Source: Paludibacteraceae bacterium (GTDB taxonomy: Bacteria > Bacteroidota > Bacteroidia > Bacteroidales > Paludibacteraceae). Taken from it: DNA of 39,091 nt. The notes beneath the pieces are model-generated. The model saw nothing but the letters and a program-made list of their open reading frames with translations, ran no database searches and was not told the origin of the DNA. Shown one piece after another: positions 5,479 through 37,150 of the stretch (within the stretch, counting starts at the first letter, position 1; every line of letters starts with the position of its first letter). The stretch spans positions 1-39,091 of the forward strand of contig JAFSTG010000076.1 in assembly GCA_017450605.1 (NCBI GenBank). The letters are read 5' to 3'. A program made the position numbers and the translations under genes.

Positions 5479-5553
5479 TGTTTGTTTTTGTGTTTAGTGT
5501 TTAGTGTGTACGCGACATGCTACCTACGAATTACGACCTACTACTTCCTACCT
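5479..5553. repeat. Heptanucleotide-period array filling the rfbC-rfbD gap
   Basis: Read on the minus strand, the 3' end of rfbC and the whole gap to the rfbD ATG can be laid out in 7-base steps: AGGAAGT, AGTAGGT, then CGTAATT, CGTAGGT, and closer to rfbD two exact ACACTAA units followed by ACACAAA. The array includes the rfbC stop codon and encodes its last residues. I see no hairpin or promoter in it. Confidence 0.7.
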
Positions 5554-6118
5554 GCCACATACTTATCTGCTTAAATTCTTCTATTTGTTCAGTGAATGTT
5601 GCATGATGTTTGTCCTTTTCTGAAAGGATAACATCCCAAACTGGCAGATGCCAATCAATATTCAATTGTTTATCATCCCATGTTATAGCGCCCTCTGCCT
5701 CAGGATGATAGAATTCGTCGCATTTATACTGAAAAACAACTTCCTTGCTCAACACGGCAAAACCATGTGCTATACCTTTAGGCATAAAAAATTGAAGATG
5801 GTTTTCTTCGGTCAGTTCAACCGAAGTCCATTGCCCGAATGTAGGACTATCGCAGCGTATATCAACTGCCACATCAAGTACTCTGCCACGAACTACTCGC
5901 ACGAGTTTCGATTGTGTAAACGGTGGTTTCTGAAAATGCAAACCTCGAAGTACTCCGTATTGCGACTTCGACTCGTTATCCTGAACAAAACGAATATCTG
6001 CTACATGCTGACTAAATTCTCGCTCGTTGAACGACTCGAAAAAATAACCACGCGAGTCGTTGAATAGGCGGGGTTCAATAATTACTACACCGGGAATTTT
6101 TGTTTTTATAATATTCAT
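5531..6118 (-). CDS. rfbC: dTDP-4-dehydrorhamnose 3,5-epimerase
   Basis: 195 residues, slightly longer than the usual 180-190. It converts dTDP-4-keto-6-deoxy-D-glucose to dTDP-4-keto-L-rhamnose; the family is a cupin-fold dimer. Visible family motifs are FNDSRGYFFESFN near the N-terminus, GVLRGLHFQ with the catalytic His at residue 61, the FMPKGIAHGFAVLS strand, and FQYKCDEFY with the expected Tyr region, followed by WDD. The final residues (about QVGSSRS) come from the heptanucleotide array at 5479-5553 and are unlikely to be functional; this accounts for the slight extra length. Third gene of the rfbABCD run. Confidence 0.95.
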   Translation of the reverse strand: MNIIKTKIPGVVIIEPRLFNDSRGYFFESFNEREFSQHVADIRFVQDNESKSQYGVLRGLHFQKPPFTQSKLVRVVRGRVLDVAVDIRCDSPTFGQWTSVELTEENHLQFFMPKGIAHGFAVLSKEVVFQYKCDEFYHPEAEGAITWDDKQLNIDWHLPVWDVILSEKDKHHATFTEQIEEFKQISMWQVGSSRS

Positions 6119-6159
6119 TTCAAGATTGTTAATAGTTGACCTTTAATAGAAAACACACC

Positions 6160-7299
6160 TTATCTGCCGGAGTACATCTTTTCATAATATTGCTGGTAGT
6201 CGCCTGACGTTACATTGTCCAACCACTGCTGATTATCAAGATACCAACGCACGGTTTTCTCTATTCCTTCTTCAAATTGCAAAGAAGGTTCCCACCCTAA
6301 TTCCTTTTGAAGTTTAGTAGAGTCTATCGCATATCGCATATCATGACCTGCACGGTCGGTAACAAAAGTTATTAGGTTGAGGTCTTCACCCTCTTTACGG
6401 CCAAGAAGTCGGTCAACGGTAGCAATCACTACTTTGATGATATCAATATTCTTCCACTCGTTGAATCCACCGATATTATATGTATCAGCAACCTTGCCGT
6501 TATGGAATATTAAATCAATAGCACGAGCATGGTCTTCCACATAAAGCCAATCTCTTACATTCTCGCCTTTACCGTAAACAGGCAGAGGTTTGCGATGCTT
6601 GATATTGTTAATAAACAAAGGTATCAGTTTTTCGGGGAACTGATAAGGTCCATAGTTATTAGAACAATTGGTAACAATGGTGGGCATACCATAAGTATCG
6701 TGGAAAGCACGCACAAAATGATCGGATGAAGCCTTACTTGCCGAATACGGCGAATGAGGATTGTATTTTGTTGTCTCGTAGAAAAAATCATGTCCATAAG
6801 CGAGATGGTGAGTGCCAGATGATGCCCGCGTAGTAAATGGGGGCTCTACTCCTTCGGGGTCGGTTAGCTCGAGCGCACCATAAACCTCGTCGGTGGAGAT
6901 ATGATAGAAACGCTTACCTTCATATTTCTCTGGCAACGACTCCCAGTAGAGTTTTGCTGCCTGCAACATTGAGAGCGTACCTAACACATTTGTGCGGGCA
7001 AATGTGAATGGGTCTTTTATTGAACGATCAACATGACTCTCAGCCGCAAGGTGAATAATTCCATCTACATGTTCACGACAGATAAGGTCGTAAACCGAAT
7101 CGAAATCGCAGATGTCGATTTTAGCAAACTTGTAATTAGGTGCTTTTTCCACATCTCGCAGATTTGCGAGATTGCCGGCGTATGTAAGTTTATCTAAATT
7201 GATAATCTTATAATTTGGATATTTATTAACGAAAAGTCGAACTACATGGCTACCTATAAATCCGGCACCACCTGTTATAACTATTGTTCTGCTCATCAT
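6160..7299 (-). CDS. rfbB: dTDP-glucose 4,6-dehydratase
   Basis: 379 residues; slightly longer than the approximately 350 typical of many homologues. It dehydrates dTDP-D-glucose to dTDP-4-keto-6-deoxy-D-glucose, with bound NAD. Motifs: TGGAGFIGSH at residues 9-18, HLAAESHVDRSI near 83, STDEVYG with catalytic Thr136-Asp137-Glu138, and the Tyr185-x3-Lys189 pair (YSASK). An insertion between STDEVYG and YSASK (roughly residues 145-180) explains the extra length and is common in Bacteroidales RfbB. Two adjacent ATG codons (7299 and 7296) could each be the start. It lies 31 bases downstream of rfbA across a heptad array. Confidence 0.95.
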   Translation of the reverse strand: MMSRTIVITGGAGFIGSHVVRLFVNKYPNYKIINLDKLTYAGNLANLRDVEKAPNYKFAKIDICDFDSVYDLICREHVDGIIHLAAESHVDRSIKDPFTFARTNVLGTLSMLQAAKLYWESLPEKYEGKRFYHISTDEVYGALELTDPEGVEPPFTTRASSGTHHLAYGHDFFYETTKYNPHSPYSASKASSDHFVRAFHDTYGMPTIVTNCSNNYGPYQFPEKLIPLFINNIKHRKPLPVYGKGENVRDWLYVEDHARAIDLIFHNGKVADTYNIGGFNEWKNIDIIKVVIATVDRLLGRKEGEDLNLITFVTDRAGHDMRYAIDSTKLQKELGWEPSLQFEEGIEKTVRWYLDNQQWLDNVTSGDYQQYYEKMYSGR

Positions 7300-7304
7300 A
7301 ATAA

Positions 7305-7325
7305 GGTGAAAAGTGAAAGGTGAAT
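7305..7325. repeat. Three heptanucleotide units in the rfbA-rfbB gap
   Basis: On the plus strand the units are GGTGAAA, AGTGAAA and GGTGAAT, in register. They occupy most of the 31-base gap between the rfbA stop (7331) and the rfbB start (7299). The same GGTGAAA/AGTGAAA wording recurs at 36031-36040 and 36119-36132. Confidence 0.7.
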
Positions 7326-7330
7326 ATTAA

Positions 7331-8236
7331 CTATTCGAGGTTGGCATACCCCGTATCTTGCATTTCGTCGATTACACGTAGCAGATATTGTCCGTATTGG
7401 TTTTTAAGCATAGGCTGTGCCAACTCGCGCATCTTCTTTTCGCCAATCCACCCCATCCTATATGCTATTCCTTCGAGACACGCAATTTTCAGCCCTTGCC
7501 TTTTTTCTATCACCTCAACAAAAGTAGAAGCCTCTGACAAGGAATCGTGAGTCCCGGTATCTAACCATGCAAAACCACGACCTAAAGTCTGCACTTTCAA
7601 TTCGCCTGCACGCAAAAATTCCTGATTGACAGTTGTTATCTCAAGTTCTCCTCGCGCAGAAGGCTTGATGTTTTTTGCCACCTCTACCACACGATTAGGA
7701 TAGAAATACAAACCTACAACAGCATAATTCGACTTTGGTACAGCTGGTTTCTCTTCTATCGACAGACAGTTACCCTCTTTGTCGAATTCTGCCACTCCGT
7801 ATCTTTCGGGGTCGCTCACCCAATAACCAAACACGGTTGCCTTATTCTCCGTTTCGGCTGTTCGCACTGCCTCACGGAGCATACTCACGAATCCGTTTCC
7901 ATGGAAGATATTATCTCCAAGAACTAAACATGCCGAATCGTTGCCAATGAACTTCTCGCCAATAATGAATGCTTGAGCTAAGCCATCGGGCGAAGGTTGC
8001 TCGGCATATTCGAAGTTCACTCCATAATCGCTTCCATCACCAAGTAATCGACGAAAACCAGGAAGGTCCTGCGGAGTAGAAATGATAAGTATATCACGGA
8101 TTCCGGCAAGCATAAGAGCCGAAATAGGATAATAAACCATTGGTTTATCATAAATAGGAAGAAGTTGCTTACTAACTCCCTTAGTAATCGGATATAGGCG
8201 TGTTCCAGAACCGCCAGCCAAAACGATACCCTTCAT
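7331..8236 (-). CDS. rfbA: Glucose-1-phosphate thymidylyltransferase
   Basis: 301 residues, the normal RmlA length. It makes dTDP-glucose from dTTP and glucose-1-phosphate, the first and feedback-inhibited step of the rhamnose pathway. The nucleotide-binding signature [11 protein letters not shown] starts at residue 8. It is followed by [17 protein letters not shown], the LGDNIFHG metal-binding strand, and [12 protein letters not shown], all hallmarks of RmlA. First gene of rfbABCD; 63 bases separate it from the M3 peptidase upstream. That gap contains a GC-rich hairpin but no clear TAnnTTTG promoter, so it may be transcribed from further upstream. Confidence 0.96.
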
Positions 8237-8255
8237 GATTGTTGAAAAGTTTTTA

Positions 8256-8273
8256 GTCCGCCAACAGGCGGAC
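8256..8273. other. Perfect GC-rich hairpin between M3 peptidase gene and rfbA
   Basis: GTCCGCC, loop AACA, GGCGGAC: a perfect 7-base stem with a 4-base loop. On the minus strand it is followed by TAAAAACTTTTC, not an uninterrupted T run, so it is a poor intrinsic terminator for the peptidase gene. It could attenuate, protect an RNA end, or be a dispersed palindromic repeat. Confidence 0.6.
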
Positions 8274-8299
8274 GAATGGTTGAATGCCTCTATTTATTT

Positions 8300-10447
8300 T
8301 TATTTATTAACTATAATGGCTTTTATTCCGTCGCGTTCGAGGATGGCATCTATAGTAGGTTCACCACCGCGGAAACGTTTATAAAGTTCCATAGGGTCTT
8401 CTGTTCCACCGCGTTCAAGAATATTGGTACGGAAAGCATCTGCTGCTTTTTTATCAAATATAGAACCATTTTTCTTTGCAGCAGCTTTGAATACCGAGAA
8501 TGCATCAGCATCGAGCAACTCCGACCATTTATAGCTATAATAACCTGCGGCATACCCGCCGGAGAAAATATGCGTAAATGCCGTCTCCATCTGTGTTCCT
8601 GACACTATCGGCATTAGTTGAACCGTCTCCATAGCTTTGTTGCCAAACTTAAGCACAGCCTCCTCGACACTCAAACCGGCTGGTACTTCGAAAGGTGATG
8701 TGAGAGTATGCCATGCCATATCAAGATAACCAAACGACAACTGACGGGCACATGCGTAAGCAGCATGATAGTTTTGCGAAGCATGCATCTTATCAAGCAA
8801 TTCCTGAGGCAACGACTCGCCGGTTATATAATGCTTTGCGAAGGTATCGAGAAACTCTTTCTCATCAATGAAATTCTCGTTGAACTGCGAGGGTAACTCC
8901 ACAAAATCGCGGGGCACATTAGTTCCCGACATCGAAGCATATTGGCATTGAGTGAGCATACCATGCAGACCATGACCAAACTCGTGCAAGAATGTACGTA
9001 CTTCGTCGTAGGTAAGCAAAGCCGGTTTGTCGTCGGTAGGACGAGTGAAGTTCATTACGTTGACGATATGCGGACGATTATTCTTCCTGCCTTCTTTCCA
9101 TTGCGGACGGAAATCATTCATCCATGCACCGCCACGCTTGCCATCACGCGGATGGAAATCGCAATAATATACGGCAATATAATTACCCTTAGCATCATAC
9201 ACCTCGTATGCCGACACTTCGGGGTTATATACTTGAATGTTCTTATTCTCTTTGAATGTGAGCCCATAGAGACGCTTTGCCAACCCAAATACACCTTTTT
9301 TCACATTCTCCAACTCGAAATACGGGCGAAGCAAATCGTCGGATATAGCATATTTCTCGTTTTTGAGTTTCTTTGAATAATAACTCCAATCCCATGGTTG
9401 CAGTTGAGCATACAGTCCATGCTCTTTGGCATATTGTTGCAGTTCCTCTGCCTCCTGATGAGCTACCGGCATATATGCATCGCGCATCTCGTCGAGCAGT
9501 TTATACACATTCTCTTTATTCTTTGCCATCGATTTATATAGCGACTTATCAGCATAGCAGTCTTTACCGAACAACTTAGCAATAGCCAGGCGGGTGTTTA
9601 CTATTTCAACTATCACCTGAGTATTATCGAACTCGCCACCTATGCAACGCGAATTATAAGCAGTATAAAGTTCACGGCGGACGTCGCGATTATCGCAGTC
9701 TTGCATAACCGGTATATATGTAGTAGGTTTCAAGTCGAGCAACCAGCCTTTCATTCCCTTACGTTCGGCATTCTGAGCAAGCATCTTCTTCGTATCGTCG
9801 TTCAAACCTGCCAAGACAGCCTCATCTGAAATGAGCATTGTCCAAGCATTTGTTGCCTTTAGTACATTCTGTCCATACTGAAGAGTAAGACGCGACAGTT
9901 TGGCACTCAGTTCTTTGTAAGTGAGTTTATCTTCAGCAGAAAGATTGGCACCATTATTGGCAAATCCATCATAAATATCCTGCAACATTTTTTGCTGCTC
10001 TTTGGTTAATTTGAGTTTGTCGCGCTGATCATAGACAGCTTTTATTCTCTGGAAGAGTTTCTCGTTGAGACGAATGGTTGACGAGTATTCCGACATTTTA
10101 GGAGATAACTCCATTTCCAATTGTTGGAGTTCATCGTTTGTCTCAGCACTTGTCAGATTATAAAAACACGAAGCCACAACCGACAAAAGTTGACCTGACT
10201 TCTCGTAAGCCTCTATTGTATTAGCAAAGGTAGGAGCCTTCGGATTATTCACAATAGCATCGATTTCGGCTAATCCCTGACGCATACCTTCTTCAAAAGC
10301 GGGCATATAATCGCTCGTTTTAATCTCGTTGAAAGGATAAGTAGAACGCGGAGTTTTCCAATTTTTGTAATTGAAGAATGGGTTTATCTCAGCATGAGCG
10401 ACCATAGTAGCAGCAAGTGCCATAACGAACAAAAGTTTAGTTTTCAT
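8300..10447 (-). CDS. dcp: Secreted M3-family zinc peptidase (peptidyl-dipeptidase Dcp / oligopeptidase)
   Basis: 715 residues, full length for the M3A family. The N-terminus has a signal peptide (MKTKLLFVMALAATMVAHA, then EINPFF), so it probably works in the periplasm. The zinc site is HEFGH at residues 488-492, with the downstream Glu at 517 in FVELPSQFNENF; these give the two His and one Glu ligands of gluzincins. The C-terminal FSGGYAAGYYSYKWSELLDADAF is a strong M3 signature (substrate-binding Tyr/Gly loop). The family trims short peptides; Dcp removes C-terminal dipeptides, oligopeptidase A cuts internally, and sequence alone does not separate them firmly. It lies 26 bases downstream of the T9SS cargo gene. 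Confidence 0.9.
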   Translation of the reverse strand: MKTKLLFVMALAATMVAHAEINPFFNYKNWKTPRSTYPFNEIKTSDYMPAFEEGMRQGLAEIDAIVNNPKAPTFANTIEAYEKSGQLLSVVASCFYNLTSAETNDELQQLEMELSPKMSEYSSTIRLNEKLFQRIKAVYDQRDKLKLTKEQQKMLQDIYDGFANNGANLSAEDKLTYKELSAKLSRLTLQYGQNVLKATNAWTMLISDEAVLAGLNDDTKKMLAQNAERKGMKGWLLDLKPTTYIPVMQDCDNRDVRRELYTAYNSRCIGGEFDNTQVIVEIVNTRLAIAKLFGKDCYADKSLYKSMAKNKENVYKLLDEMRDAYMPVAHQEAEELQQYAKEHGLYAQLQPWDWSYYSKKLKNEKYAISDDLLRPYFELENVKKGVFGLAKRLYGLTFKENKNIQVYNPEVSAYEVYDAKGNYIAVYYCDFHPRDGKRGGAWMNDFRPQWKEGRKNNRPHIVNVMNFTRPTDDKPALLTYDEVRTFLHEFGHGLHGMLTQCQYASMSGTNVPRDFVELPSQFNENFIDEKEFLDTFAKHYITGESLPQELLDKMHASQNYHAAYACARQLSFGYLDMAWHTLTSPFEVPAGLSVEEAVLKFGNKAMETVQLMPIVSGTQMETAFTHIFSGGYAAGYYSYKWSELLDADAFSVFKAAAKKNGSIFDKKAADAFRTNILERGGTEDPMELYKRFRGGEPTIDAILERDGIKAIIVNK

Positions 10448-10473
10448 TGTACTTGTTATTTTATTATTTCTTA

Positions 10474-11802: not shown

Positions 11803-11834
11803 TTCGAGAAAAACTTTATACAATTATGAGGTTG

Positions 11835-11869
11835 CAAATTTACACTTTTTTTTTCATACACACAACAAA
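11835..11869 (-). promoter_or_regulatory. Bacteroidetes-type promoter for the T9SS cargo gene
   Basis: On the minus strand, a -7 element TAAATTTG (11842-11835) is preceded at 20 bases by TTG within TTTGTTG (11869-11863). This fits the Bacteroidetes sigma-ABfr consensus TTTG/TTG...TAnnTTTG. The predicted start, about 6 bases downstream, leaves a 27-base leader to the ATG at 11802. Confidence 0.6.
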
Positions 11870-11907
11870 TTTTTCAACTCAAAATTACAAATCAGCACAA
11901 CAAAAAC

Positions 11908-11942
11908 AAAAGTGCCGTTTAGCTTTACTAAACGACACTTTT
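11908..11942 (-). terminator. Intrinsic terminator after the six-repeat lipoprotein gene
   Basis: The arms AAGTG-c-CGTTTAG and CTAAACG-a-CACTT flank a 5-base loop, making a 12-pair stem with one mismatch and A/T flanks that extend it. On the minus strand it is followed by a T-rich run (TTTTGTTTTTG). It sits about 40 bases past the lipoprotein stop at 11981 and just before the next promoter. Confidence 0.75.
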
Positions 11943-11980
11943 ACAATTATCATTTTCTATTGAATTGCAGCGGATTATAC

Positions 11981-13270: not shown

Positions 13271-13312
13271 GAGATTATATATTTAGTGAATAATTATTTT
13301 TCAAATATGCTG

Positions 13313-13344
13313 CAAATTTAGAATATTTTTTTATAATTCTCAAA
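13313..13344 (-). promoter_or_regulatory. Promoter of the six-repeat lipoprotein gene
   Basis: On the minus strand, TTTG (13344-13341), exactly 20 bases, then TAAATTTG (13320-13313), a full match to the Bacteroidetes consensus. The predicted leader to the ATG at 13270 is about 37 bases. Confidence 0.75.
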
Positions 13345-13371
13345 AAATGCAGAAAAATAATCAGTGAAAAC

Positions 13372-13383
13372 CCACAAATGTGG
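13372..13383 (-). terminator. Weak hairpin after the S9 peptidase gene
   Basis: CCACA-TT-TGTGG is a perfect 5-base stem with a very short loop, followed on the minus strand by GTTTTCA. It lies directly after the S9 peptidase stop at 13395. It is too small to be sure of; it could be chance. Confidence 0.2.
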
Positions 13384-13394
13384 AGTATTTTGCT

Positions 13395-15527: not shown

Positions 15528-15546
15528 TTTTTAAGAATCTATATAT

Positions 15547-17466: not shown

Positions 17467-17485
17467 AAGACAAGTAAATACAAAA

Positions 17486-17519: not shown

Positions 17520-17533
17520 CTTTTTGATTATTA

Positions 17534-23776: not shown

Positions 23777-23812
23777 GGAGTATTCGCAAATATTATAAAT
23801 TCTCTTTCTAAA

Positions 23813-25069: not shown

Positions 25070-25096
25070 TAGCATCCAAGGAGCCTCATCTCTACC

Positions 25097-25120: not shown

Positions 25121-25132
25121 ACCAGACACTTG

Positions 25133-25864: not shown

Positions 25865-25894
25865 AATAAAAAATTTTAAAGTTAATAAATTAGG

Positions 25895-27391: not shown

Positions 27392-27396
27392 AATGA

Positions 27397-28293: not shown

Positions 28294-28304
28294 TATAACA
28301 TGCG

Positions 28305-28730: not shown

Positions 28731-28733
28731 GAT

Positions 28734-28754
28734 AGTTAACAGTTAATAGTTAAT
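28734..28754. repeat. Three heptanucleotide units spanning the DUF4249 stop codon
   Basis: On the plus strand the units are AGTTAAC, AGTTAAT and AGTTAAT, in register. They fill most of the 12-base gap and contain the DUF4249 stop (28743-28745) and its last codons (Asn-Tyr). Confidence 0.7.
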
Positions 28755-29846
28755 ATTTGGATAGGTTATTTCTTCTGTTGTTATGGCTTTTCCGGTTACG
28801 TGCCCTAAGCCCCCGTTGATATTGCAGAACAGTTGAACTCCGCTCTCCATCCCGAAATCCCGACTAACAGTAGTTGAAAACTCGCTTGCTACTTCGGTTA
28901 GGTCGAAATCAAAGACATTACCTAAGTTATCGCGATAGTTATCGTTGGGATATTCCCCCTTGTAAATGGCTTTCGTGCAATAATATCGGTAGGTATCCTC
29001 AGTCCAATTCTCAACTTTAATTGTCGTTTTAAGGTTACATTTGGCAATATCTTCCTCTTTAAGATTCTGCCCCAGCCTGCTCCTGAAGGTAATATTAGCA
29101 TTGAGGTGAAGCAGATAATCAGCTGTAGCAAGCACTGCAGCCGGCAGCAATAGATATTTGCCGTCGATAGGATAATAGTTCATTTTGCTTGAACGAAGGT
29201 TTGCACAACGCTCAAACACCGAGTCGTTGCAGTAGAAAGTACTCGGGCTCAATGTTGCCAACAGACTATCCTGAGCATCGTAACACTCTAACTCCACTTT
29301 CAGCCGAAGAGCCACATACTCATTTTCTTTCCCCTGATACTGCAACAGGTTAATATCAACTGAGTATGCCTTATCATTGTAAGTTATATTCGAAATTGTG
29401 AAATCTATCGGTTTTGGCAGCTGTTGTTCTGCACTCACCTCGCCTATCGACGGACAAGTGGCACGCAAAGAAACCGCATCGCCGGGTTGAAGAATGTATC
29501 CTTCGGCTTTGTACATCATCACATTGTCGGTTGTATCTTTATAAATACTCATCCTTCCCCATTCTCCTGAGTTTATCTGATACTCGACAATAGCATTAGT
29601 AAGGGCTCCAAGTTGATGATTGGAAGTCTCTTCAAGGCGGTTTGTGTCAACAGGCGTAAGGTCGGTAACATTCTCATCGAGGAAGAAATACGAGCGCCCT
29701 ACGTATGCCGTGAGCGGTTGTCCTGCAACCATTTCTGAATGCAGAACAGGTAGCGGTTCTTCTACCTCGCCCTTGAACTGAACTGTAGTCTCGCACGACA
29801 CAAAAACAAACAGCAACAAGAATATATATAATTTTCTATTTATCAT
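28743..29846 (-). CDS. DUF4249 family lipoprotein, partner of the TonB receptor
   Basis: 367 residues from the ATG at 29846. An alternative ATG at 29861 overlaps the receptor stop as ATGGTAA and adds MVRRE; the inner start gives a normal lipoprotein signal (MINRKLYIFLLLFVFVSC) and has AAGAAGAG just before it. After the lipid Cys the protein is beta-rich with several Ig-like or transthyretin-like stretches. DUF4249 genes are regularly found directly after a TonB-dependent receptor with a CarboxypepD_reg domain, as here, so it is probably a surface lipoprotein working with that receptor. The ligand is unknown. Confidence 0.85.
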   Translation of the reverse strand: MINRKLYIFLLLFVFVSCETTVQFKGEVEEPLPVLHSEMVAGQPLTAYVGRSYFFLDENVTDLTPVDTNRLEETSNHQLGALTNAIVEYQINSGEWGRMSIYKDTTDNVMMYKAEGYILQPGDAVSLRATCPSIGEVSAEQQLPKPIDFTISNITYNDKAYSVDINLLQYQGKENEYVALRLKVELECYDAQDSLLATLSPSTFYCNDSVFERCANLRSSKMNYYPIDGKYLLLPAAVLATADYLLHLNANITFRSRLGQNLKEEDIAKCNLKTTIKVENWTEDTYRYYCTKAIYKGEYPNDNYRDNLGNVFDFDLTEVASEFSTTVSRDFGMESGVQLFCNINGGLGHVTGKAITTEEITYPNINY

Positions 29847-29854
29847 TTCTCTTC

Positions 29855-32260
29855 TTACCATTTAAATGTGTAACTCAAACTTGGCAATATAGGGAAAATA
29901 GTTATCTTATATAGTTGTCCTTCACGCTCGTCGGCATAGAGAAGGAAGGGATTCATATTGTTATAAACATTATATACAGCCACATTAACCAAGTGTTCGG
30001 CGTTCTTCCACTTATGGTGAGGAATATGGAAATTCGCTCCTAAATCCAATCGGTGATAGTTTGGCATTATGTAATTATTGCGCTCTTCGTAATAATATAC
30101 ACTATGGCGGCGTGTACTAATATCAGGGTCGTAATAACGCTGCATAGCCAATGTTGCACGATTTCCCGAAGAGAACACAAAAGTGCCTGACACATCTATC
30201 TTCGGTGTTATCTGATAACTAAGAGTAACACTCAGGTCGTGTTCGCGATCGTATTTGGCATGAAATGGTTTTCCGAAATTCAACACCTGCCCCTCACGAG
30301 CAAACTGCCGCATAGTCCGACTCCATGTATATGCTATCCAGCCTGTAAGTTTACCTATTTTGCGCTGAGCAAGAAACTCCACTCCGTAACTCCAACCATC
30401 CCCCATAAAAACTTTATTCTCCCATCCGGCTGCCGAGCCGAAGAAAGAAGCTCCGTCGCGATACTCAACAAGATTTTTCATAAACTTATAATACCCTTCA
30501 ATCGACAATTCCACCTGTCCTAAAACATTATAAGTTACCCCAAGAGCAGCTTGCAGAGAACGCATGGGGGCGATTTTACTTGTCACAGGCACCCACAAAT
30601 CGGTTGGTAGCGACACACTCGAGTTGCTAAGCAAATGTATATATTGCGACATATAGGAGTAACTTGCTTTTATTGCTAAATCACGCGTTATCAATGTTCG
30701 CAAGCCTATGCGCGGTTCAATTGAAGGATACACCTTACCTTTTACTGCATACAAACTGCCATGCAGACCTATATTCATCTTCAGCCACCACAACGGACTA
30801 TATGTATCTTCAACGTATGCCGACACTTCGTGAGAATTGGTTATTCCGCCCGACAATGTTGTGTCAACAGGTAATCCATTCGATAACGACTCAACCCCAA
30901 ACATGCTAAGCGATGCCACCTGCGGATTAAAACGATGATATACATATTGTGCCCCATACCGAAGGTTATGTTTATTGTTTGGCGTAAACTCAAAATTCGA
31001 CTGAAGCACCAAGTCCATGATATGCGATCTGTATTGCAACTCTTCGTTAAGGTTGAGCCGGCGATTGCTATCTGTCGAGTCGAGAGCCAAAGAAGCATCA
31101 AGAGTCTGCTTTAGATTATAGCGGTAACGTGTGAAACTAAGTTGGGTTATAGCAAACATCTTTGGCGAGAAACGATGTTCCCAAGACACTGCTCCCAACA
31201 GATTTCCCCAGTTCCAGCCAAGACTTAACTTCGAACGCCCGCCATCCATTCCCTCCACCTCGCGCTCTCTATAATTGACATACACCTTGTCGTCGCCGAT
31301 ATAGAAAGAGCCGGAAAGTTTGTCGTTATCCGAAAAACGATGTGTTACTTTAGCATTCACATCGTAAAAATAATAACCTGCCGCTGCACTTCCATCGTTC
31401 ATCTCGCTTTTGGAGATTGCGTGCATAATAGGTGCTGTGATAAGATCGAAGTAAGTACGGCGTGCCGACACATTAAACGAGGTCTTCCCTTTCACAATCG
31501 GGCCTTCTACATTCACCTTGGCAGCTATCAGACCTACTGTAACACTACCCCTGTATTGCTGAAGGTTTCCGTCGTTTTGCCTGACATCAATAACCGACGA
31601 TAGTCGGGAACCAAAACGAGCCGGAAAATTACCCTTGTATAGCGTCAGACTCTTCACCGCGTCGGCATTAAATACGGAAAAGAACCCCATCATGTGGTTT
31701 ACGTTATACAACGGTACTCCATCGAGCATAACAAGATTCTCATCGGGTCCCCCGCCTCTGACATACACTCCTGCAGAACCTTCTGTTCCGGCTTGAACAC
31801 CGGGCAACAACTGCAAAGCCTTAAGCACATCCACCTCGCCGCCTAAAGCCGGAATACCTTTCATCTGCTGAACCGGTACTTCCACAGCCGACATCTGCAC
31901 CGACTGCGGACTGCTAAGCGACTGATTTGCCACAACGGTTACTTCGCTCAAATGAGCATTGTTCGACAAGTTGAAATTCAACAACGTATCTTTTTTAACA
32001 GACAATTGCATATTTAATGTCTCATAACCCACATAACTCACTGTGAGTATTATGTTGGTTGCCGGAAGAGTCAGAGTATAGAAACCGGCATTATTAGTAA
32101 CCGTTCCTACAGAAGTCGTGTTCTCAAAAACTGTGGCACCTATTAAGCGTTCTCCTGATTCCGCATCCGACACATATCCGTTTAGGGTTATGCCCTGTGC
32201 ATTGCCCCAAAAAGAAAAGGTCATCAAGCAGAAACAGAAACAAAACAAACGCTTGCACAT
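29855..32260 (-). CDS. TonB-dependent outer-membrane receptor with CarboxypepD_reg domain
   Basis: 801 residues. Signal peptide ending near FWGNAQ. Residues about 24-105 are a CarboxypepD_reg-like domain (LNGYVSDAESGERLIGATVF ... VSYVGYETL). The plug follows (about 125-230) with LQLLPGVQAGTEGSAGVYVR, VMLDGVPLYN and GNFPARFGSRLSSVIDVR. The rest is a 22-strand-type barrel ending in the aromatic strand LPSLSYTFKW. It lacks the length (about 1,000) and extra features of SusC proteins. TonB-driven import of a ligand that cannot be named. It starts 3 bases after the acetyltransferase stop and is followed by its DUF4249 partner. Confidence 0.93.
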   Translation of the reverse strand: MCKRLFCFCFCLMTFSFWGNAQGITLNGYVSDAESGERLIGATVFENTTSVGTVTNNAGFYTLTLPATNIILTVSYVGYETLNMQLSVKKDTLLNFNLSNNAHLSEVTVVANQSLSSPQSVQMSAVEVPVQQMKGIPALGGEVDVLKALQLLPGVQAGTEGSAGVYVRGGGPDENLVMLDGVPLYNVNHMMGFFSVFNADAVKSLTLYKGNFPARFGSRLSSVIDVRQNDGNLQQYRGSVTVGLIAAKVNVEGPIVKGKTSFNVSARRTYFDLITAPIMHAISKSEMNDGSAAAGYYFYDVNAKVTHRFSDNDKLSGSFYIGDDKVYVNYREREVEGMDGGRSKLSLGWNWGNLLGAVSWEHRFSPKMFAITQLSFTRYRYNLKQTLDASLALDSTDSNRRLNLNEELQYRSHIMDLVLQSNFEFTPNNKHNLRYGAQYVYHRFNPQVASLSMFGVESLSNGLPVDTTLSGGITNSHEVSAYVEDTYSPLWWLKMNIGLHGSLYAVKGKVYPSIEPRIGLRTLITRDLAIKASYSYMSQYIHLLSNSSVSLPTDLWVPVTSKIAPMRSLQAALGVTYNVLGQVELSIEGYYKFMKNLVEYRDGASFFGSAAGWENKVFMGDGWSYGVEFLAQRKIGKLTGWIAYTWSRTMRQFAREGQVLNFGKPFHAKYDREHDLSVTLSYQITPKIDVSGTFVFSSGNRATLAMQRYYDPDISTRRHSVYYYEERNNYIMPNYHRLDLGANFHIPHHKWKNAEHLVNVAVYNVYNNMNPFLLYADEREGQLYKITIFPILPSLSYTFKW

Positions 32261-32263
32261 ATT

Positions 32264-32842
32264 TTATTCAGCCGCTAATACAACGCAATTATCTTTCATG
32301 ATATATGTTTCGCCGGTAGCAGGGCATTTTGCCACCCCCTCGTCGTTGAAATGCAACTTCTCGCCATGCCGCGAAACCCACCCTATACGACGTGCAGGAT
32401 TGCCTACCATCAAAGCAAAGTCAGGCACATCTTTCGTAACCACTGAGCCGGCGCCAATAAGACAATACCGACCAAGCGTATGACCACACACAATGGTGGC
32501 ATTAGCACCCACCGAAGCCCCTTGTTTGATAATTGTGGCGCGATATTCATCTTTGCGAGATACTGCCGACCGAGGGTTGATGACATTGGTAAAGACCATC
32601 GAAGGTCCGAGGAAAACATCATCTTCGCATACCACACCGGTATAAACCGATACATTATTTTGTATCTTCACATTATTACCTAACACTACATCGGGTGAAA
32701 TAACCACATTCTGCCCTATGTTACATCTCTCACCGATCTTGCAACCCGACATAACATGGCAGAAATGCCAAATCTTAGTACCATTGCCAATCAGGCAACC
32801 ATCGTCAACATACGACGACTCATGAACATAATAAGGTAGCAT
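32264..32842 (-). CDS. WlbB/WbpD-like sugar N-acetyltransferase (left-handed beta-helix)
   Basis: 192 residues, the normal size. Imperfect hexapeptide repeats (such as IGNGTKIWHFCHVMSGC, IGERCNIGQNVVISPDVVLG) form a left-handed beta-helix. The segments KIQNNVSVYTGVVCEDDVF, GPSMVFTNVINPRS and VGNPARRIGWVSRHG match WlbB/WbpD, which acetylate the 3-amino group of UDP-2-acetamido-3-amino-2,3-dideoxy-D-glucuronate in di-N-acetylated mannuronate synthesis. A conserved C-terminal CPATGETY tail is also present. The companion enzymes of that pathway are not next to it. Its start overlaps the rseP stop by one base (TGATG arrangement). Confidence 0.85.
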   Translation of the reverse strand: MLPYYVHESSYVDDGCLIGNGTKIWHFCHVMSGCKIGERCNIGQNVVISPDVVLGNNVKIQNNVSVYTGVVCEDDVFLGPSMVFTNVINPRSAVSRKDEYRATIIKQGASVGANATIVCGHTLGRYCLIGAGSVVTKDVPDFALMVGNPARRIGWVSRHGEKLHFNDEGVAKCPATGETYIMKDNCVVLAAE

Positions 32843-34362
32843 CAGAAAAATCTAATTACATCATTGAGGTTGGCGTAGATAAGTAGTGCTATCAGCAGCC
32901 AAAAACCTATATTATTTGCTATTTCGAGGAAGCGGTCGGAAGGTTTGCGGCGAGTAATCATTTCGAACAACAGCATCAGCACATATCCTCCATCGAGTCC
33001 TGGAATAGGTATGATATTCATAAATGCAAGAATAATACTCAGGAAAGCTGTCATATTCCAGAATATAGTCCAATCCCATACAGGCGGGAAGAGATTACCA
33101 ATCGAACCGAAACCACCGAGCGACTTAGCTCCCTCTTTGGTGAACACAAGTTTAAATTGTTTGACGTAACTAACAAGCACACTCCAACCATATTCTATAC
33201 CAGCAGGTATCGACTCCCAGAATCCGTATTCCACGCGAGTGGTTTGCAGATAATCGTATGCCGAGCGCCAACGCACACCCATTATGCACTCGTCGCCAAT
33301 AAACATCTCGCAAGTTTGCATCTGCTCATCGTCACGGCGGAAATAACTGACTGAAATAGTTTCGCAAGGATGTTTCATCAACTCTGCCTTCACATCTTGT
33401 GCAGCCGTAGTCATCACTCCATTAACAGCCACTATGCTATCACCTTCCGCCATCAACGCCATGGCAGCTGCACTACCCTCAGACACCTCGCCGACCACTG
33501 CAGGGAATCGGTAATCGAGCATCCCGGTGCCGGAAGCGAGAATCTTTTGGTCGATGCCGTCAGATAACGTTATGGCAATAGTGTCGTAGGTAGCTGGTAG
33601 TTGCTCATAAGTAACAGGACGTAAGAGAACAAAGTCGTGCTTGCCTTCGACCAATGCCCATTCCACAACATCCTTCGTTGTTTCGGGTTTTTCGCCGTTG
33701 ATGGTAAGTATCTTATCTCCATTTTTGAAACCTTCTTCCAAGAGGACATCAGAATACTGCATTCCATAGGTAGCATTCTCTATCTTCATATACTCCTCAC
33801 CATTGGAGAACATTAGAGCCGAATAGATTATCATTGCAGCTATAAAATTGACGAGCACACCGCCTATGATTATCGGAAGACGCTGATATGTAGGTTTCGA
33901 ACGGTATTCCCAAGGTTGGGGCTCCGAGGCCAATTCACCGGCCGAAGTCGTCTCGTCAACCATTCCTGATATTGCACAATATCCTCCGAAAGGAAGCCAG
34001 CCTATTCCCCACTCTGTGTTCTGCGGATCATGACGCCAATCGTCGGCAGGCAATGAGGCTATCTCCTCATCAGTCATAGGGCGGAAAACGGGTTTACCTT
34101 TGCGGTCGAGAATAGTATTGCCGTTGGCATCTTTCTTCTCAACCATTGCATTTTCGACATTTGGGGCAAAGAAACGGAAACGCCATTTGCCGGCAATTTT
34201 TTTCATTCGGAAGATGGAAAACGACGGATTGAAAAACATATAGAATTTCTCAACCCTCACCTTGAAAATACGAGCAAAAGTAAAATGACCCAATTCGTGA
34301 ATTATAACAAGAAATGAAAGCGATAAAATGAGTTGTAGAGCTTTAATCCAAAAAGTTGACAT
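32842..34362 (-). CDS. rseP: RIP metalloprotease RseP (site-2 protease)
   Basis: 506 residues, longer than the 450 of E. coli RseP. A membrane zinc protease that cuts anti-sigma factors or leftover signal peptides within the membrane. The zinc motif HELGH is at residues 22-26 in the first TM helix. The third ligand lies in NIIPIPGLDGG (Asp457) in a C-terminal TM region. PDZ-type segments lie between (about 205-265 and 285-355), with NGDKILTINGEKP and EGDSIVAVNGV as their binding-loop strands. It heads an eight-gene run. The commonly adjacent dxr is not next to it. A perfect promoter lies 35 bases upstream. Confidence 0.95.
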   Translation of the reverse strand: MSTFWIKALQLILSLSFLVIIHELGHFTFARIFKVRVEKFYMFFNPSFSIFRMKKIAGKWRFRFFAPNVENAMVEKKDANGNTILDRKGKPVFRPMTDEEIASLPADDWRHDPQNTEWGIGWLPFGGYCAISGMVDETTSAGELASEPQPWEYRSKPTYQRLPIIIGGVLVNFIAAMIIYSALMFSNGEEYMKIENATYGMQYSDVLLEEGFKNGDKILTINGEKPETTKDVVEWALVEGKHDFVLLRPVTYEQLPATYDTIAITLSDGIDQKILASGTGMLDYRFPAVVGEVSEGSAAAMALMAEGDSIVAVNGVMTTAAQDVKAELMKHPCETISVSYFRRDDEQMQTCEMFIGDECIMGVRWRSAYDYLQTTRVEYGFWESIPAGIEYGWSVLVSYVKQFKLVFTKEGAKSLGGFGSIGNLFPPVWDWTIFWNMTAFLSIILAFMNIIPIPGLDGGYVLMLLFEMITRRKPSDRFLEIANNIGFWLLIALLIYANLNDVIRFF

Positions 34363-34396
34363 TATCGTAGAATATTAATTAAAGATTTTCAGGCTA

Positions 34397-34428
34397 CAAA
34401 AATAATATATTTTTGCAACATACACAAA
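34397..34428 (-). promoter_or_regulatory. Promoter of the rseP-led run
   Basis: On the minus strand, TTTG (34428-34425), exactly 20 bases, then TATTTTTG (34404-34397). The predicted leader to the rseP ATG is about 29 bases. This is the only consensus promoter I see for the eight minus-strand genes down to 25133. Confidence 0.8.
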
Positions 34429-34454
34429 ATATCGACAAATAACATGCCGTAATA

Positions 34455-34484
34455 TTGTCAAACGAAAAAAAATAACTATTTTTG
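34455..34484 (+). promoter_or_regulatory. Promoter of the SDR-FNT-GT2 run
   Basis: TTG (34455-34457), 19 bases, then TATTTTTG (34477-34484). The predicted leader to the ATG at 34518 is about 28 bases. It is divergent from, and about 30 bases away from, the rseP promoter. Confidence 0.65.
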
Positions 34485-34517
34485 CAGAGTTTAACAGATA
34501 ATAAACAATAATCATCT

Positions 34518-35324
34518 ATGAATAGTAAATACGCTTTAGTAACCGGTGCATCGTCTGGAATAGGCAAATGCTATGCTCAGATACTTGCCCGCGATTATCA
34601 TTATAACCTACTGCTTGTTAGCAATCAGCAGAAAGAACTACAGGATGTGGCTGAGTACTTAAGCACCGAATATAAGATTAAAGCCATACCACATTACTGC
34701 GACCTTGCCCGCACAGATGCAGCAAAGCAACTATACGACTGGTGCCGGGAAGCGGAGTATGAAGTAGATGTACTGATTAACAACGCAGGAATGTTTTTTT
34801 GGAAGACCCTTATTGATGTCGATCCCAAGAAGATAGAATGCATGCTGCTCGTTCACATGCATACTCTTGCAATGATGTGTCGCTACTTTGGCGAGGCGAT
34901 GTGCAGGCGAGGCAGTGGTTACATACTCAATATGTCGTCGCTTACGTATAAAATGACCTTCCCCGGTATTCAGTGTTATAACTCCACTAAAGCCTTTGTA
35001 TATAGTTTCTCAAAGTCTCTGTGGTACGAGTTTAAGCCATTAGGTGTAAAAGTATGCACTCTCACTCCCGGAGCCATCGATACTCCACTTTACGGTCTGA
35101 ACGATAAAGCCCGCCGTTTGCTCGTCAGATTCGGAATATCGTTCACACCTATGCGATTTGCTGCAATTGCACTCAAGCGAATGTTCAAAGGACGCAAAAC
35201 GGCAATGCCGGGATGGATTAACCATATCGCATTACCCATTATCATTCACCTTCCTGACTGGGCTATTTTCTTTGCCATGAAACGCTTACCGCAATACGAA
35301 GGAATATATAATCGAAGGTCGTAG
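34518..35324 (+). CDS. Short-chain dehydrogenase/reductase (SDR)
   Basis: 268 residues, the classical SDR size. NAD(P) is bound by TGASSGIG (residues 9-16). VLINNAG is the central strand, NMSS holds the catalytic Ser, and YNSTK gives catalytic Tyr154 and Lys158. A basic residue near the first strand end and the C-terminal hydrophobic/basic segment (GWINHIALPIIIHLPDW) recall membrane-associated SDRs of the DltE/YqjQ type. The substrate is unknown. The last codons (Arg-Arg-Ser) begin a heptanucleotide array. First gene of a three-gene plus-strand run. Confidence 0.88.
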   Translation: MNSKYALVTGASSGIGKCYAQILARDYHYNLLLVSNQQKELQDVAEYLSTEYKIKAIPHYCDLARTDAAKQLYDWCREAEYEVDVLINNAGMFFWKTLIDVDPKKIECMLLVHMHTLAMMCRYFGEAMCRRGSGYILNMSSLTYKMTFPGIQCYNSTKAFVYSFSKSLWYEFKPLGVKVCTLTPGAIDTPLYGLNDKARRLLVRFGISFTPMRFAAIALKRMFKGRKTAMPGWINHIALPIIIHLPDWAIFFAMKRLPQYEGIYNRRS

Positions 35325-35358
35325 GTAGCAGGTAGAAAGTAGCAGGAAGCAGGGAACA
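35317..35358. repeat. Six heptanucleotide units starting in the SDR stop region
   Basis: In-register units on the plus strand: GGTCGTA, GGTAGCA, then GGTAGAA, AGTAGCA, then GGAAGCA, GGGAACA. The SDR stop TAG (35322-35324) falls across units 1 and 2. This is the clearest of the arrays. Confidence 0.85.
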
Positions 35359-35436
35359 CCGGTTTCCAACCGACGATAGAATTGAGAAAAGGATAGTAAT
35401 GGAGAACACTAATTTTGAAAATTAACAACTATTTAG

Positions 35437-36048
35437 ATGAATAAATTCGACATTTTCCGTTCTGCCATAATGGCAGGAATATGTATTGGTATAGCAGGAT
35501 TCGGATATCTTGTTAACTCCACTTTTGGCATGTTTCTTTTCGCGTTTGGGCTGGCTGCTGTTGTGCAATACAAACTCAAACTCTTTACCGGCACTGCGGG
35601 ATTCGTTGAGAGCAAAAGCGATTTACTCGACCTCCTTATTATCCTTGCAGGTAATGTTGTAGGTTGCTTGTGCGTTGCGCTCTTATCACGTTGCTCAAAT
35701 TTCGAACTACAAACAGCAGCCGAAGCACTACTCGACAAACGACTCACCAACGGACCTCTTAATGCATCCTTATTATCAATTGGTTGCGGATTTCTTATGA
35801 CAACAGCAGTAACCTTTGCTCGTAAGTCGAAGGAGTTTGCTGATTGGCTTCCACTGCTATTCGCAGTACCCATGTTCATTCTTTGTGGATTTCCGCACTG
35901 CATAGCAGATAGTTTCTATTATCTCTGCTGCAGCCCCAAAAAGTTACTTAGCGAACCAATGTTTCCGCTGTTGTATGCAGGTATAATAACCGGTAATTTT
36001 ATAGGATGTAACCTGTACCGACTACTAATAAAGGTGAAAAGCAATTAG
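35437..36048 (+). CDS. Small formate/nitrite transporter (FNT)-family channel
   Basis: 203 residues, shorter than the usual 250-285. It has six hydrophobic segments: about 8-25, 27-44, 63-83, 105-125, 135-152 and 175-195. The FNT signatures are recognisable: KLKLFTGTAGFV matches the LFTG loop before helix 3, and GFPHCIADSFYY matches the G-x-x-H-x-x-A/S-N/D-M/S segment with the central pore His. The family conducts small monovalent anions such as formate, nitrite, hydrosulfide or lactate. Shortening is in the N-terminus and loops. The last residues (VKSN) lie in GGTGAAA-type repeat DNA. Confidence 0.75.
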   Translation: MNKFDIFRSAIMAGICIGIAGFGYLVNSTFGMFLFAFGLAAVVQYKLKLFTGTAGFVESKSDLLDLLIILAGNVVGCLCVALLSRCSNFELQTAAEALLDKRLTNGPLNASLLSIGCGFLMTTAVTFARKSKEFADWLPLLFAVPMFILCGFPHCIADSFYYLCCSPKKLLSEPMFPLLYAGIITGNFIGCNLYRLLIKVKSN

Positions 36049-36067
36049 ACATTAAAAATATATAAAT

Positions 36068-36103
36068 TCTGTTAAATCTGAAAAATCTGTGTTATCTGCG
36101 TGA
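36068..36103. repeat. Four 9-base units beginning TCTG
   Basis: In-register units TCTGTTAAA, TCTGAAAAA, then TCTGTGTTA, TCTGCGTGA, followed by AATTCC. Period 9, different from the neighbouring heptad arrays. It lies in the 117-base gap between the FNT and GT2 genes. Confidence 0.75.
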
Positions 36104-36111
36104 AATTCCAT

Positions 36112-36160
36112 TTAGAAAAGTGAAAAGTAAAAGGTAAAGAAATAAGAAATTAGAAATATA
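36112..36160. repeat. Seven heptanucleotide units before the GT2 gene
   Basis: In-register units on the plus strand include TTAGAAA, AGTGAAA, then AGTAAAA, GGTAAAG, then AAATAAG, AAATTAG and AAATATA. The array ends five bases before the GT2 start codon at 36166, so it occupies the ribosome-binding region, where no classical Shine-Dalgarno sequence is seen. Confidence 0.7.
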
Positions 36161-36165
36161 AATTC

Positions 36166-37137
36166 ATGCTTTCCATCATTGTCCCTATATATAATGTTGA
36201 GCAGTATCTGCATAAATGCGTCGATAGTCTCTTGCAACAGGATATTGCACCAACTGATTACGAGATACTGCTCATCGACGATGGCTCAACCGACAACTCG
36301 GCTCAGATAGCCGATTATTATGCAGAGCAACATGAAAATATACATGTCGTTCATCAAAACAACGCAGGACTGAGCGATGCACGAAACGTAGGTATCGACA
36401 AAGCAAAAGGCGACTTCGTTATGTTTGTCGATTCCGACGATTTTCTTGAGCCTTGTGTGCTTGGCACGTTAATTAAAAAAATGAAAGATGATAATCTCGA
36501 TATTCTAAGATTTAATTATCAAAATGTGAACGAGAATTATGAGCCATATAACCCCAATAAGACTTACAAACCGTTCGTTGATTTTCGAGATGAGGTATGC
36601 GACGGACAGACATTTCTCAACCAAAGGTTAGGAGGAGCATGTTATGCATGTCAGTTTATTTTAAAAAATAAATTCACCCACACGACGAGATTCATGCCTG
36701 GCAGATACTACGAAGATATGCTCTGGACTCCTGAGGTGCTACTCCGCGCACAGCGAGTAACCTCGATTGATACCATAGTTTATAATTACTTCACTCGCGC
36801 AGACTCGATAACTAAATCTCCTAACCCGAGTAAAGTTCGTAAACGCATTGAAGACAGTATGTTTGTTGTTGAAACCTACTTGCAAATGAAGCGAGACGTA
36901 ACAGACAGCCGCTGGTTCGATTCTGCTATAGCACAAAAAGTAGTGAATGTCTTGCAAACGGTAGCCACTAACTTCCCCACCGAACTCGACTCCTACCTCT
37001 CGCGTATTAAGGCTCTGAATGTATTTCCACTGCACGACTATCACGCCACAAAATTTTTCCGCAGAAAACTTTTCCTCATCAATCTCAGTCCCCTACTCTT
37101 CTGCTATCTTATGCAAGTCGTAGGTCGTAGTAGGTAA
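36166..37137 (+). CDS. Family 2 glycosyltransferase
   Basis: 323 residues, GT-A fold. The N-terminus SIIVPIYNVEQYLHKCVDSL, the LIDDGSTDNS strand and the metal-binding FVDSDDFL (Asp89-Ser-Asp91-Asp92) are those of inverting GT2 enzymes that build surface polysaccharide or glycolipid. The middle GGACYACQFILK and RYYEDMLWTPEVL (ED acid motif) are typical of Bacteroidales GT2 proteins. The last residues (QVVGRSR) are encoded by repeat DNA at 37116-37150. The donor and acceptor are unknown. It is third in the plus-strand run and convergent with susD. Confidence 0.92.
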   Translation: MLSIIVPIYNVEQYLHKCVDSLLQQDIAPTDYEILLIDDGSTDNSAQIADYYAEQHENIHVVHQNNAGLSDARNVGIDKAKGDFVMFVDSDDFLEPCVLGTLIKKMKDDNLDILRFNYQNVNENYEPYNPNKTYKPFVDFRDEVCDGQTFLNQRLGGACYACQFILKNKFTHTTRFMPGRYYEDMLWTPEVLLRAQRVTSIDTIVYNYFTRADSITKSPNPSKVRKRIEDSMFVVETYLQMKRDVTDSRWFDSAIAQKVVNVLQTVATNFPTELDSYLSRIKALNVFPLHDYHATKFFRRKLFLINLSPLLFCYLMQVVGRSR

Positions 37138-37150
37138 TAGGTAGGCAATA
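37116..37150. repeat. Five heptanucleotide units spanning the GT2 stop codon
   Basis: In-register units AGTCGTA, GGTCGTA, then GTAGGTA, ATAGGTA and GGCAATA. The GT2 stop TAA (37135-37137) falls across units 3 and 4. This is nearly the same wording as the array at 35317-35358 and the reverse complement of part of 5514-5553. Confidence 0.85.

Follow-up and report, generated by a model that had tools for sequence, protein, structure and literature searches.

Degenerate seven-base tandem arrays with genome-specific words in gene gaps and protein loops of Bacteroidales

Short, degenerate tandem arrays of 7-base units (heptads) recur in the gaps between genes of a Paludibacteraceae bacterium and its Bacteroidales relatives, and the repeated words look like a property of each genome, common to its genes and its gaps. 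Our starting point was a single 39,091-nucleotide contig, JAFSTG010000076.1 of assembly GCA_017450605.1, whose full length we call the window. We consider it probable that these arrays arise mostly by neutral tandem growth with rapid turnover, accompanied by the spread of words and of small hairpins. The source genome (G000, with the window as its contig C40) is a 2.24-Mb draft in 120 contigs, 84% complete, of which 0.77 Mb entered the period counts and 1.04 Mb the hairpin scan, most contigs being represented by their first 20 kb. All scripts relied on an open-frame caller for genes, which puts some in-gene arrays in short or edge frames, and arrays were mostly called at a score of 10 (match +1, mismatch −2). 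Genomes and loci carry our own G and L numbers.

The initial annotation of the window had laid out six of its gaps in 7-base units, and all six stretches stood above 5,000 dinucleotide shuffles each. Those P values belong to sites preselected by eye; an unbiased test takes all 24 gaps of the window, which held 6 lag-7 segments against a shuffle mean of 0.07 (the largest of 300 shuffles gave 2). All other lags from 3 to 14 yielded 0 or 1 segment, leaving lag 7 alone in clear excess. Lag 7 was also the best of lags 5–12 in all six stretches (P 0 to 0.012 with the best lag allowed), and Tandem Repeats Finder (TRF) agreed on period 7 at five of the six sites. At the sixth, 37130–37150, it returned period 11, which makes this the weakest of the six.

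The array at 5479–5553 (minus strand; TRF 5486–5507) covers the 3′ end of rmlC and the rmlC–rmlD gap, with lag-7 identity of 43/68 (0 of 5,000 shuffles) and gene-strand units GGTAGGA/AGTAGTA/GGTCGTA/GGTAGCA followed by CTAAACA words. It encodes the C-terminal tail of the window RmlC, which is 195 amino acids long, compared with 182–188 in most congeners. A short array in the rmlA–rmlB gap (7305–7325; TRF 7306–7324) shows GTGAAAA words on the plus strand and matches at 11 of 14 positions (P 0.005). TTAACTA/TTAACTG units at 28732–28755, the limits given by TRF, span the end of a DUF4249 gene and the gap to a DUF4293 gene; identity across 28734–28754 is 13/14 (0 of 5,000 shuffles). On the plus strand, the array at 35312–35353 (TRF 35323–35353) runs from the 3′ end of a short-chain dehydrogenase gene into the gap with units GGTCGTA/GGTAGCA/GGTAGAA/AGTAGCA, and the stretch 35317–35358 reaches 26/35 (0 of 5,000 shuffles). 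Two adjoining plus-strand runs lie 5′ of a glycosyltransferase gene (36115–36157; TRF 36116–36138 and 36137–36158), AGTGAAA words coming before AGAAATT/AGAAATA words, with 28/42 identity over 36112–36160 (P 0.0008). The weak plus-strand run at 37116–37150 (GTAGTAG/GTAATAG/GTAGGCA; 18/28, P 0.002) lies across the end of the glycosyltransferase gene. Four of the six arrays enter the 3′ end of the upstream gene: 5479–5553 (rmlC) and those beginning at 28734, 35312 and 37116. The initial wording of the units as A/G-T-rich holds in part; 7306–7324 is pyrimidine-rich on the gene strand.

A lag-7 peak had been predicted for intergenic regions beyond the window, and it is present. Across 769 kb of the source genome (448 gaps, 56.9 kb of gaps) we counted 25 lag-7 segments versus 0.8 in shuffles, or 43.9 per 100 kb of gap against 1.2 per 100 kb of coding DNA (8 segments in 689 kb); lags 3–6 gave 1, 0, 1 and 1 segments in the gaps, no clear excess. 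The congener G014 held 26 segments against 0.45 in half that gap length. Eighty loci of relatives contributed 53 against 0.7, spread over 22 of the 80, and their counts at periods 3–6 were 5, 3, 2 and 3, compared with 3.2, 2.3, 1.1 and 0.8 in shuffles. All but four of these loci are labelled Bacteroidales, Bacteroidia or similar, the outliers kept in the counts being two Akkermansia, one Eubacteriales and one Capnocytophaga. The best relatives of the window RmlA come from Bacteroidales- or Bacteroidia-labelled records, of which many are assemblies from rumen or gut. Four cyanobacterial plasmid samples run through the same script gave 31 lag-7 segments against 1.2 and none at lags 3–6, one of the four, Nostoc UHCC 0926, being without lag-7 segments. 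Control plasmids, 50-kb parts from R. albus and B. thetaiotaomicron (6.4 and 14.7 kb of gaps), had no lag-7 segments. Gaps of the source genome also hold other tandem families (L011 12453–12513, L012 6880–6949, L019 11060–11130 and L029 13523–13561), with periods of 9 (TCCGGCATT and CCGGAAAnn), 8 (CATTAAAT) and 11 (TCCTGTCATCT).

The words themselves recur within a genome. Consensus units of unlinked arrays fell within one change of each other in 43 of 740 pairs in G000, against 19.9 after letter shuffling (maximum 31), and in 77 of 737 pairs in G014, against 28.2 (maximum 40). Arrays inside genes draw on the same stock: 19 of 31 matched a gap array of their own genome or locus, where 6.25 were expected from comparison with an equal number of other genomes' arrays. 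Relative to letter shuffles, both Bacteroidales gap units and cyanobacterial units are enriched in GAA and TCA/TGA and poor in GTA, ATA and CAT, whereas AAC and ACT are high in Bacteroidales gap units and low in cyanobacterial ones; with this opposite bias, no one unit rule emerges. Identity of cyanobacterial units to a Bacteroidales unit was found for 11 of 31, versus 5.4 letter-shuffled (maximum 12).

Two stricter accounts of the vocabulary were tried and rejected. A single RGTNNNN unit grammar, to which the earliest arrays and published heptad words had pointed, does not accommodate many of the units, among them the AGATTTC, AGGAATC and AGCAATT words. The idea that loci exchange copies of long array stretches found no support, the longest common substrings being no longer than after whole-unit shuffling.

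The placement of the arrays is the pattern of DNA tolerated away from promoters. Two separate array sets were used, both of 166 by chance: one from a larger sample of gaps only, and one found anywhere in G000, G014, the nearer congener G023 and the 80 loci. In the gap set, density per 100 kb of gap was 63.5 between co-directional genes (131 arrays) and 71.6 between convergent genes (24), and only 18.6 between divergent genes (11). The initial annotation had placed the six window arrays within or just after co-directional runs; elsewhere arrays also occupy convergent gaps and the inside of called genes. Of the 131 co-directional arrays, 71 lay within 15 nt of the stop, more than the fraction of 0.36 that uniform placement gives, and 57 lay within 15 nt of the start, a slight excess over the same 0.36. 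Both array orientations occur. In the G014 clade, the motif AGGCAAG closes several arrays only a few bases ahead of the start codons of unrelated genes (L126 1860, 4414 and 5137; L133 9815; L277 8736; L265 9591 and 10384; L273 19300; L263 18425). One array of the source genome (L015 3976–4003) sits in the gap just 5′ of a MutS-domain frame (G000:C14:3602–3940, minus strand).

Of the 166 arrays in the second set, 32 are inside called genes, and some of these encode protein segments. In L145 and L153, heptads encode part of the RmlB loop that links the conserved AKLYWE and RFYHIST motifs and that has about nine residues in most others; long inserts of other kinds occupy the same loop in L168, L184 and L193, one with an 11-residue repeat. 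Next to a dihydroorotate dehydrogenase gene lies a gene for a PyrK-like protein (DHODB Fe-S domain), whose RPISVC–LTIIYKV stretch is 6 residues long in 6 of 14 congeners and 12–29 in the other 8. By eye, heptads together with a hairpin make up the insert in G014 and G024, and longer-period repeats fill the remaining six. Fifty nucleotides of the G014 insert recur at 96% identity within a different called gene in G112, and heptads stand beside both stretches by eye. TRF also reports a perfect period-7 run of 2.6 copies inside the window rmlB (6325–6342, minus strand; score 36), absent from the initial annotation, which may be ordinary coding sequence.

Orthologous gaps differ between species in their array content. 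Among 482 orthologous gap pairs from 15 genomes, 377 had arrays in neither member, 93 in one and 12 in both. rmlD adjoins rmlC in 24 of 29 congener RmlC loci, with a gap of at most 30 nt in 18 of the 24, and 15 of those 18 short gaps have no lag-7 or lag-8 segment. Lag-7 segments occur at this gap in L056, L076 and L083 and lag-8 segments in L056, L068 and L075, their words all differing from those of the window. The gap behind the PyrK-like gene carries unrelated repeat sets among congeners despite flanks that are 80–91% identical. A gap with GAxTCCC units measures 48 nt in G076, 62 nt in G112 and 90 nt in G095, where a 4-unit block is doubled, so that the three species differ by 14, 28 and 42 nt. 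At another place (L272 about 8266–8319 and L265 about 10343–10396, reverse-complement coordinates), gap and coding ends of two species are identical over more than 100 nt and the flanking genes are only about 85–90% identical; this identity reflects recent exchange or strong constraint.

A dispersed hairpin is associated with part of the arrays. The sequence GGTACGCCRRTTTRYAAYYGGCG, a short palindrome present in many copies, as repetitive extragenic palindromic (REP) elements are, occurs 34 times in G000 at up to 3 mismatches, with 0 hits for the reversed pattern. At up to 2 mismatches there are 181 copies in G181, 24 in G000, one in each of three congeners and none in 173 of 178 genomes; because the copies are concentrated in G181 and G000, we conclude that the hairpin has spread recently. 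In the window, a decayed copy with 4 mismatches (35353–35375, plus strand) stands directly behind the heptads. It is seen in the scan at up to 4 mismatches (31 hits in 1.04 Mb; 0, 1 and 1 in three shuffles) and is absent at up to 3. Such a 4-mismatch match is near chance over a megabase, but not directly behind the array at 35312–35353.

Among 56 distinct copies (from G000, the fetched loci of G181, three other genomes and the window, whose copy was admitted despite its 4 mismatches), 8 have a lag-7 array in the 45 nt that precede them on the 5′ side, versus 0.18 in shuffles, or 7 of 55 without the window copy. The 3′ side gave 2 of 56 versus 0.2, and other lags 0–1. By eye, some copies, such as those in L287 and L340, are flanked on either side by similar words, which would fit insertion of the hairpin into an array. 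Seen from the arrays, a hairpin lay beside 5 of 50 (4% under random placement), 9 of 66 (11%) and 6 of 75 (6%). Since most arrays are without an adjacent hairpin, hairpins are not their general cause.

Copies of the G000 hairpin start with GGTA and have varied ends by eye; the GTAG/CGTC tag was not found on it. A search for foot motifs yielded none beyond GGTA in the G000 family and TTAC/AGTG in the G014 clade, the latter largely from one repeated gap. Of 61 genomes of the genus, 18 had a match to the Y1 transposase family PF01797 that passed its cut-off; G014 was not among them, and G000 (84% complete) had matches only below the cut-off. As separate observations, the GGTACGCC hairpin forms a cluster at L330 13401–16531 (G000:C74:18401–21531) that holds 12 of the 31 hits in both orientations; its inspected flanks show no heptads, and G181 has similar clusters. 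A second hairpin type in the G014 clade, AGGACG-stem-CTAYAG with varied stems, is embedded in heptads (L126 1709–1871, L277 8736, L265 9591 and 10384, L272 8307), and, read on the opposite strand, its ends look by eye like the GTAG/CGTC tags of REPs. A third dispersed stem-loop of about 50 nt has heptads beside it (L126 2052–2099; L280 5076–5125 and 7685–7756; L270 1680) and lies inside called genes in L126 and at L280 5076. Rfam had no match in L126 1600–2800.

Under neutral growth, 7-base units would be strung head to tail wherever extra DNA harms little, that is, behind stop codons, in gaps within operons, between convergent genes and in protein surface loops. Replication slippage or unequal pairing would lengthen and shorten the arrays in 7-base steps. 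Mismatch repair acts on small loops and lets larger ones escape, and MutS and MutL domains are present in G000; units shorter than 7 may fail to build up if their small loops are removed and loops of 7 or more are left. New arrays would be seeded mainly by fragments of arrays from the same genome, giving each genome its own words, and small REP-like hairpins would spread through the array sites too. Array sequence with no conserved task would then be mostly neutral or selfish. The slippage-driven growth of short seeds proposed in the initial annotation agrees with the genome-wide lag-7 excess, with array presence and absence among congeners and with the steps of 14, 28 and 42 nt; what local slippage of random seeds does not explain is the recurrence of similar words at unlinked sites and the link of some arrays with a dispersed hairpin.

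A rival reading is a mobile system in which REP-like hairpins carry or target arrays, an enzyme copies short array pieces along with them to new sites in gaps and genes, and slippage only trims the arrays afterwards. The recent spread of GGTACGCCRRTTTRYAAYYGGCG (34 copies in G000 against a control of 0, and 181 in G181), the arrays 5′ of 8 of 56 hairpin copies versus 0.18, the similar flanking words at copies such as those of L287 and L340, and the 96% match over 50 nt between the G014 PyrK-like insert and the G112 gene, with heptads beside both, all speak for it. Yet most arrays are hairpin-free (hairpins beside 5/50, 9/66 and 6/75), 12 of 31 hairpin hits fall in one cluster with no heptads in its inspected flanks, no dedicated transposase was seen (PF01797 does not pass its cut-off in G000 or G014), and insertion of hairpins into pre-existing arrays would give the same picture. 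We regard such a system as unlikely, if worth keeping in view. A broader form, in which a private 7-base vocabulary is actively copied to new places, in gaps as in protein loops, along with hairpins and templated in sevens in both Bacteroidales and Cyanobacteria, with slippage only pruning, strikes us as rather unlikely.

The arrays could instead be cis-acting RNA signals, repeats that bind a protein (a cold-shock protein, for example) or that space a stop from the next start. Such a role would suit their closeness to stops (71/131 within 15 nt) and, somewhat, to starts (57/131), the purine-rich sense strand and sense-stop bias, the AGGCAAG endings before start codons in the G014 clade and the identical arrays in some congeners. 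It is at odds with convergent gaps, which are equally dense and offer no downstream start, with words that differ between species at one gap, with arrays in both orientations and within reading frames, and with the majority of orthologous rmlC–rmlD gaps, which measure a few bases and hold no array. We judge this role improbable; it is not needed for the arrays as a group, and single arrays may have gained one. Between the options first raised for the window, a spacer or RNA signal on one side and neutral expansion on the other, the neutral one fits better with the convergent density, divergent avoidance, both orientations and protein loops. Phase-variable contingency loci, whose array length would switch or tune the next gene, seem very improbable. 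A period that is not a multiple of 3 does shift frames, some arrays are in frames or gene ends, and one gap shows 7-step length differences; still, the arrays are short, degenerate and mostly outside frames, the neighbouring genes that were looked up are household genes (the rml operon and genes for a formate/nitrite-transporter family protein, a glycosyltransferase and dihydroorotate dehydrogenase), and such loci have units of 1–5 nt, whereas periods 3–5 show no excess in G000 or the window. That the repeats are an assembly or sequencing artefact of metagenome-assembled genomes is barely credible. The draft state of G000 (120 contigs) and the metagenome labels on many of the 80 loci would allow it, but arrays recur in other records, at 22 of those 80 loci, the same spectrum appears in parts of three cyanobacterial plasmids titled complete, and arrays of 20–50 nt fit within single short reads.

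Several observations weigh against neutral growth with rapid turnover as we have set it out. Escape from mismatch repair leaves the preference for 7 over 5 and 6 unexplained. Period 7 is the commonest, not the sole, period in G000, where lags 9 (17 segments), 14 (15), 11 (11), 18 (11), 8 (7) and 16 (7) also exceed shuffles, the excess at 14 partly re-counting period-7 arrays; periods 8, 9 and 11 are likewise in excess in the 80 loci. The nearer congener G023 is array-poor (2 lag-7 segments versus 0.05 in 10.3 kb of gaps). The order of unit variants is not common to different loci. The gene strand is purine-rich more often than not (82 versus 46 arrays, P 0.002), and stops fall on the sense strand only in 32 and on the antisense strand only in 11 of 96 arrays, a difference that is partly an artefact of open-frame calling. 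The predicted 7-base length steps were found at one gap only, in the three congeners with 48, 62 and 90 nt, and a fourth (G111), with 64 nt and an A-run, is off the step of 7. Both members carry arrays within two unit changes in only 4 of the 482 gap pairs; one of these four differs by 28 nt in length, one is identical and two, with different words, differ by 3 nt. Other arrays are overly alike: G073 and G118 share 53 identical gap nucleotides between flanks with mostly 80–94% identity in each 100 nt, and 29 nucleotides are the same in G073, G111 and G125, so constraint or exchange occurs. These turnover comparisons are made between species or congeners.

A stop-codon insulator role, first suggested by a sense stop in nearly all gap arrays, was dropped as the main claim. 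Against letter-shuffled units (134 units, both strands), TAA numbered 70 versus 62, TAG 32 versus 36 and TGA 54 versus 38, and sense-only stops outnumbered antisense-only ones by 17 to 6 of 49 among arrays more than 15 nt past the stop (P 0.035) and by 15 to 6 of 43 beyond 30 nt (P 0.08). The insulator reading was abandoned because TAA and TAG are unenriched, stops are often on both strands and the caller's frame extension favours this result.

The tendency of bacteria to build repeats of 7 bases and not of fewer is a long-standing puzzle. Well over 100 arrays, array-free orthologous gaps, enzyme-loop arrays and genome-specific words make slippage, spread and selection separable here. The arrays explain some of the unusual insertions and uneven termini seen in RmlB, RmlC and the PyrK-like protein of uncultured Bacteroidales, which can mislead annotation, and they counsel caution against taking such gap repeats for regulatory motifs.

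The closest known parallel is the cyanobacterial short tandemly repeated repetitive (STRR) sequences. Their published words include CCCCAGT, TTGGTCA and CAACAGT, and an STRR insert is reportedly present in a cyanobacterial RNase P RNA gene, going by the title of a reference. PMC2670836, in its available text, describes STRRs as repeats mostly of 7 bp whose function is unknown. Like the arrays described here, they are dominated by period 7 with periods 3–6 missing, have degenerate units, and lie between genes, many per genome; three of our four plasmid samples gave this spectrum. They differ in that their words are not common to Bacteroidales beyond composition, and enzyme-loop arrays that use gap words are not mentioned for STRRs in the text available. 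Heptanucleotides are the most abundant class in most genomes, attributed to slippage, by Mrazek et al. 2007 as cited in the accessible part of PMC4679880. That same part (MacGregor 2015) describes direct TAACTGA repeats in Beggiatoaceae, cyanobacteria and five Bacteroidetes, including Paludibacter propionicigenes, with a cold-shock protein among the candidate binders. The initial annotation knew of no described Bacteroidales counterpart; P. propionicigenes, a Bacteroidales, supplies one. TAACTGA repeats resemble ours as intergenic heptamers, some within genes, whose gaps in close relatives can be shorter and repeat-free, and differ in being one fixed word, located in orange Maribeggiatoa mostly just 5′ of the start (PMC4679880, available part), whereas our arrays have many words per genome, both orientations and a place in convergent gaps too. 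The TAACTGA unit is not among the window units (TTAACTA/TTAACTG, AGTGAAA, GGTAGCA, CTAAACA and AGAAATT), and start-codon placement of the Maribeggiatoa kind was not seen, with 57 of 131 co-directional arrays within 15 nt of a start and convergent gaps equally dense.

Cyanobacteria are also said to harbour very small mobile repeats, some of them beside or within heptameric tandem repeats, in work by Elhai and colleagues from 2008; these belong to another phylum and have other sequences. REPs are GTAG/CGTC-tagged palindromes found mostly between unidirectional and convergent genes (PMC3733652, as far as its text was available). The hairpins beside our arrays are likewise small dispersed palindromes between, and sometimes inside, genes. 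Unlike REPs, the G000 hairpin has no GTAG/CGTC tag; no matching transposase was found in the 84% complete genome, where PF01797 scores only below its cut-off, and the available text of PMC3733652 does not describe a link of REPs to heptad arrays. Tandem heptanucleotide elements, intergenic and intragenic, are reported for Geobacter metallireducens (PMC2700814) and G-rich intergenic tandem heptamers for Xanthomonas and Nostoc (PMC4692102); in the portions of these papers available, they consist of few fixed words, whereas those here are many, degenerate and mostly AT-rich. Our literature search, with most subscription journals outside it, returned no report of multi-word heptad arrays sharing words with protein loops of Bacteroidales. 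Heptanucleotide arrays themselves are thus already known, and what is new here is their presence inside genes, the genome-specific words shared between genes and gaps, the avoidance of divergent gaps and the link of some arrays to a hairpin.

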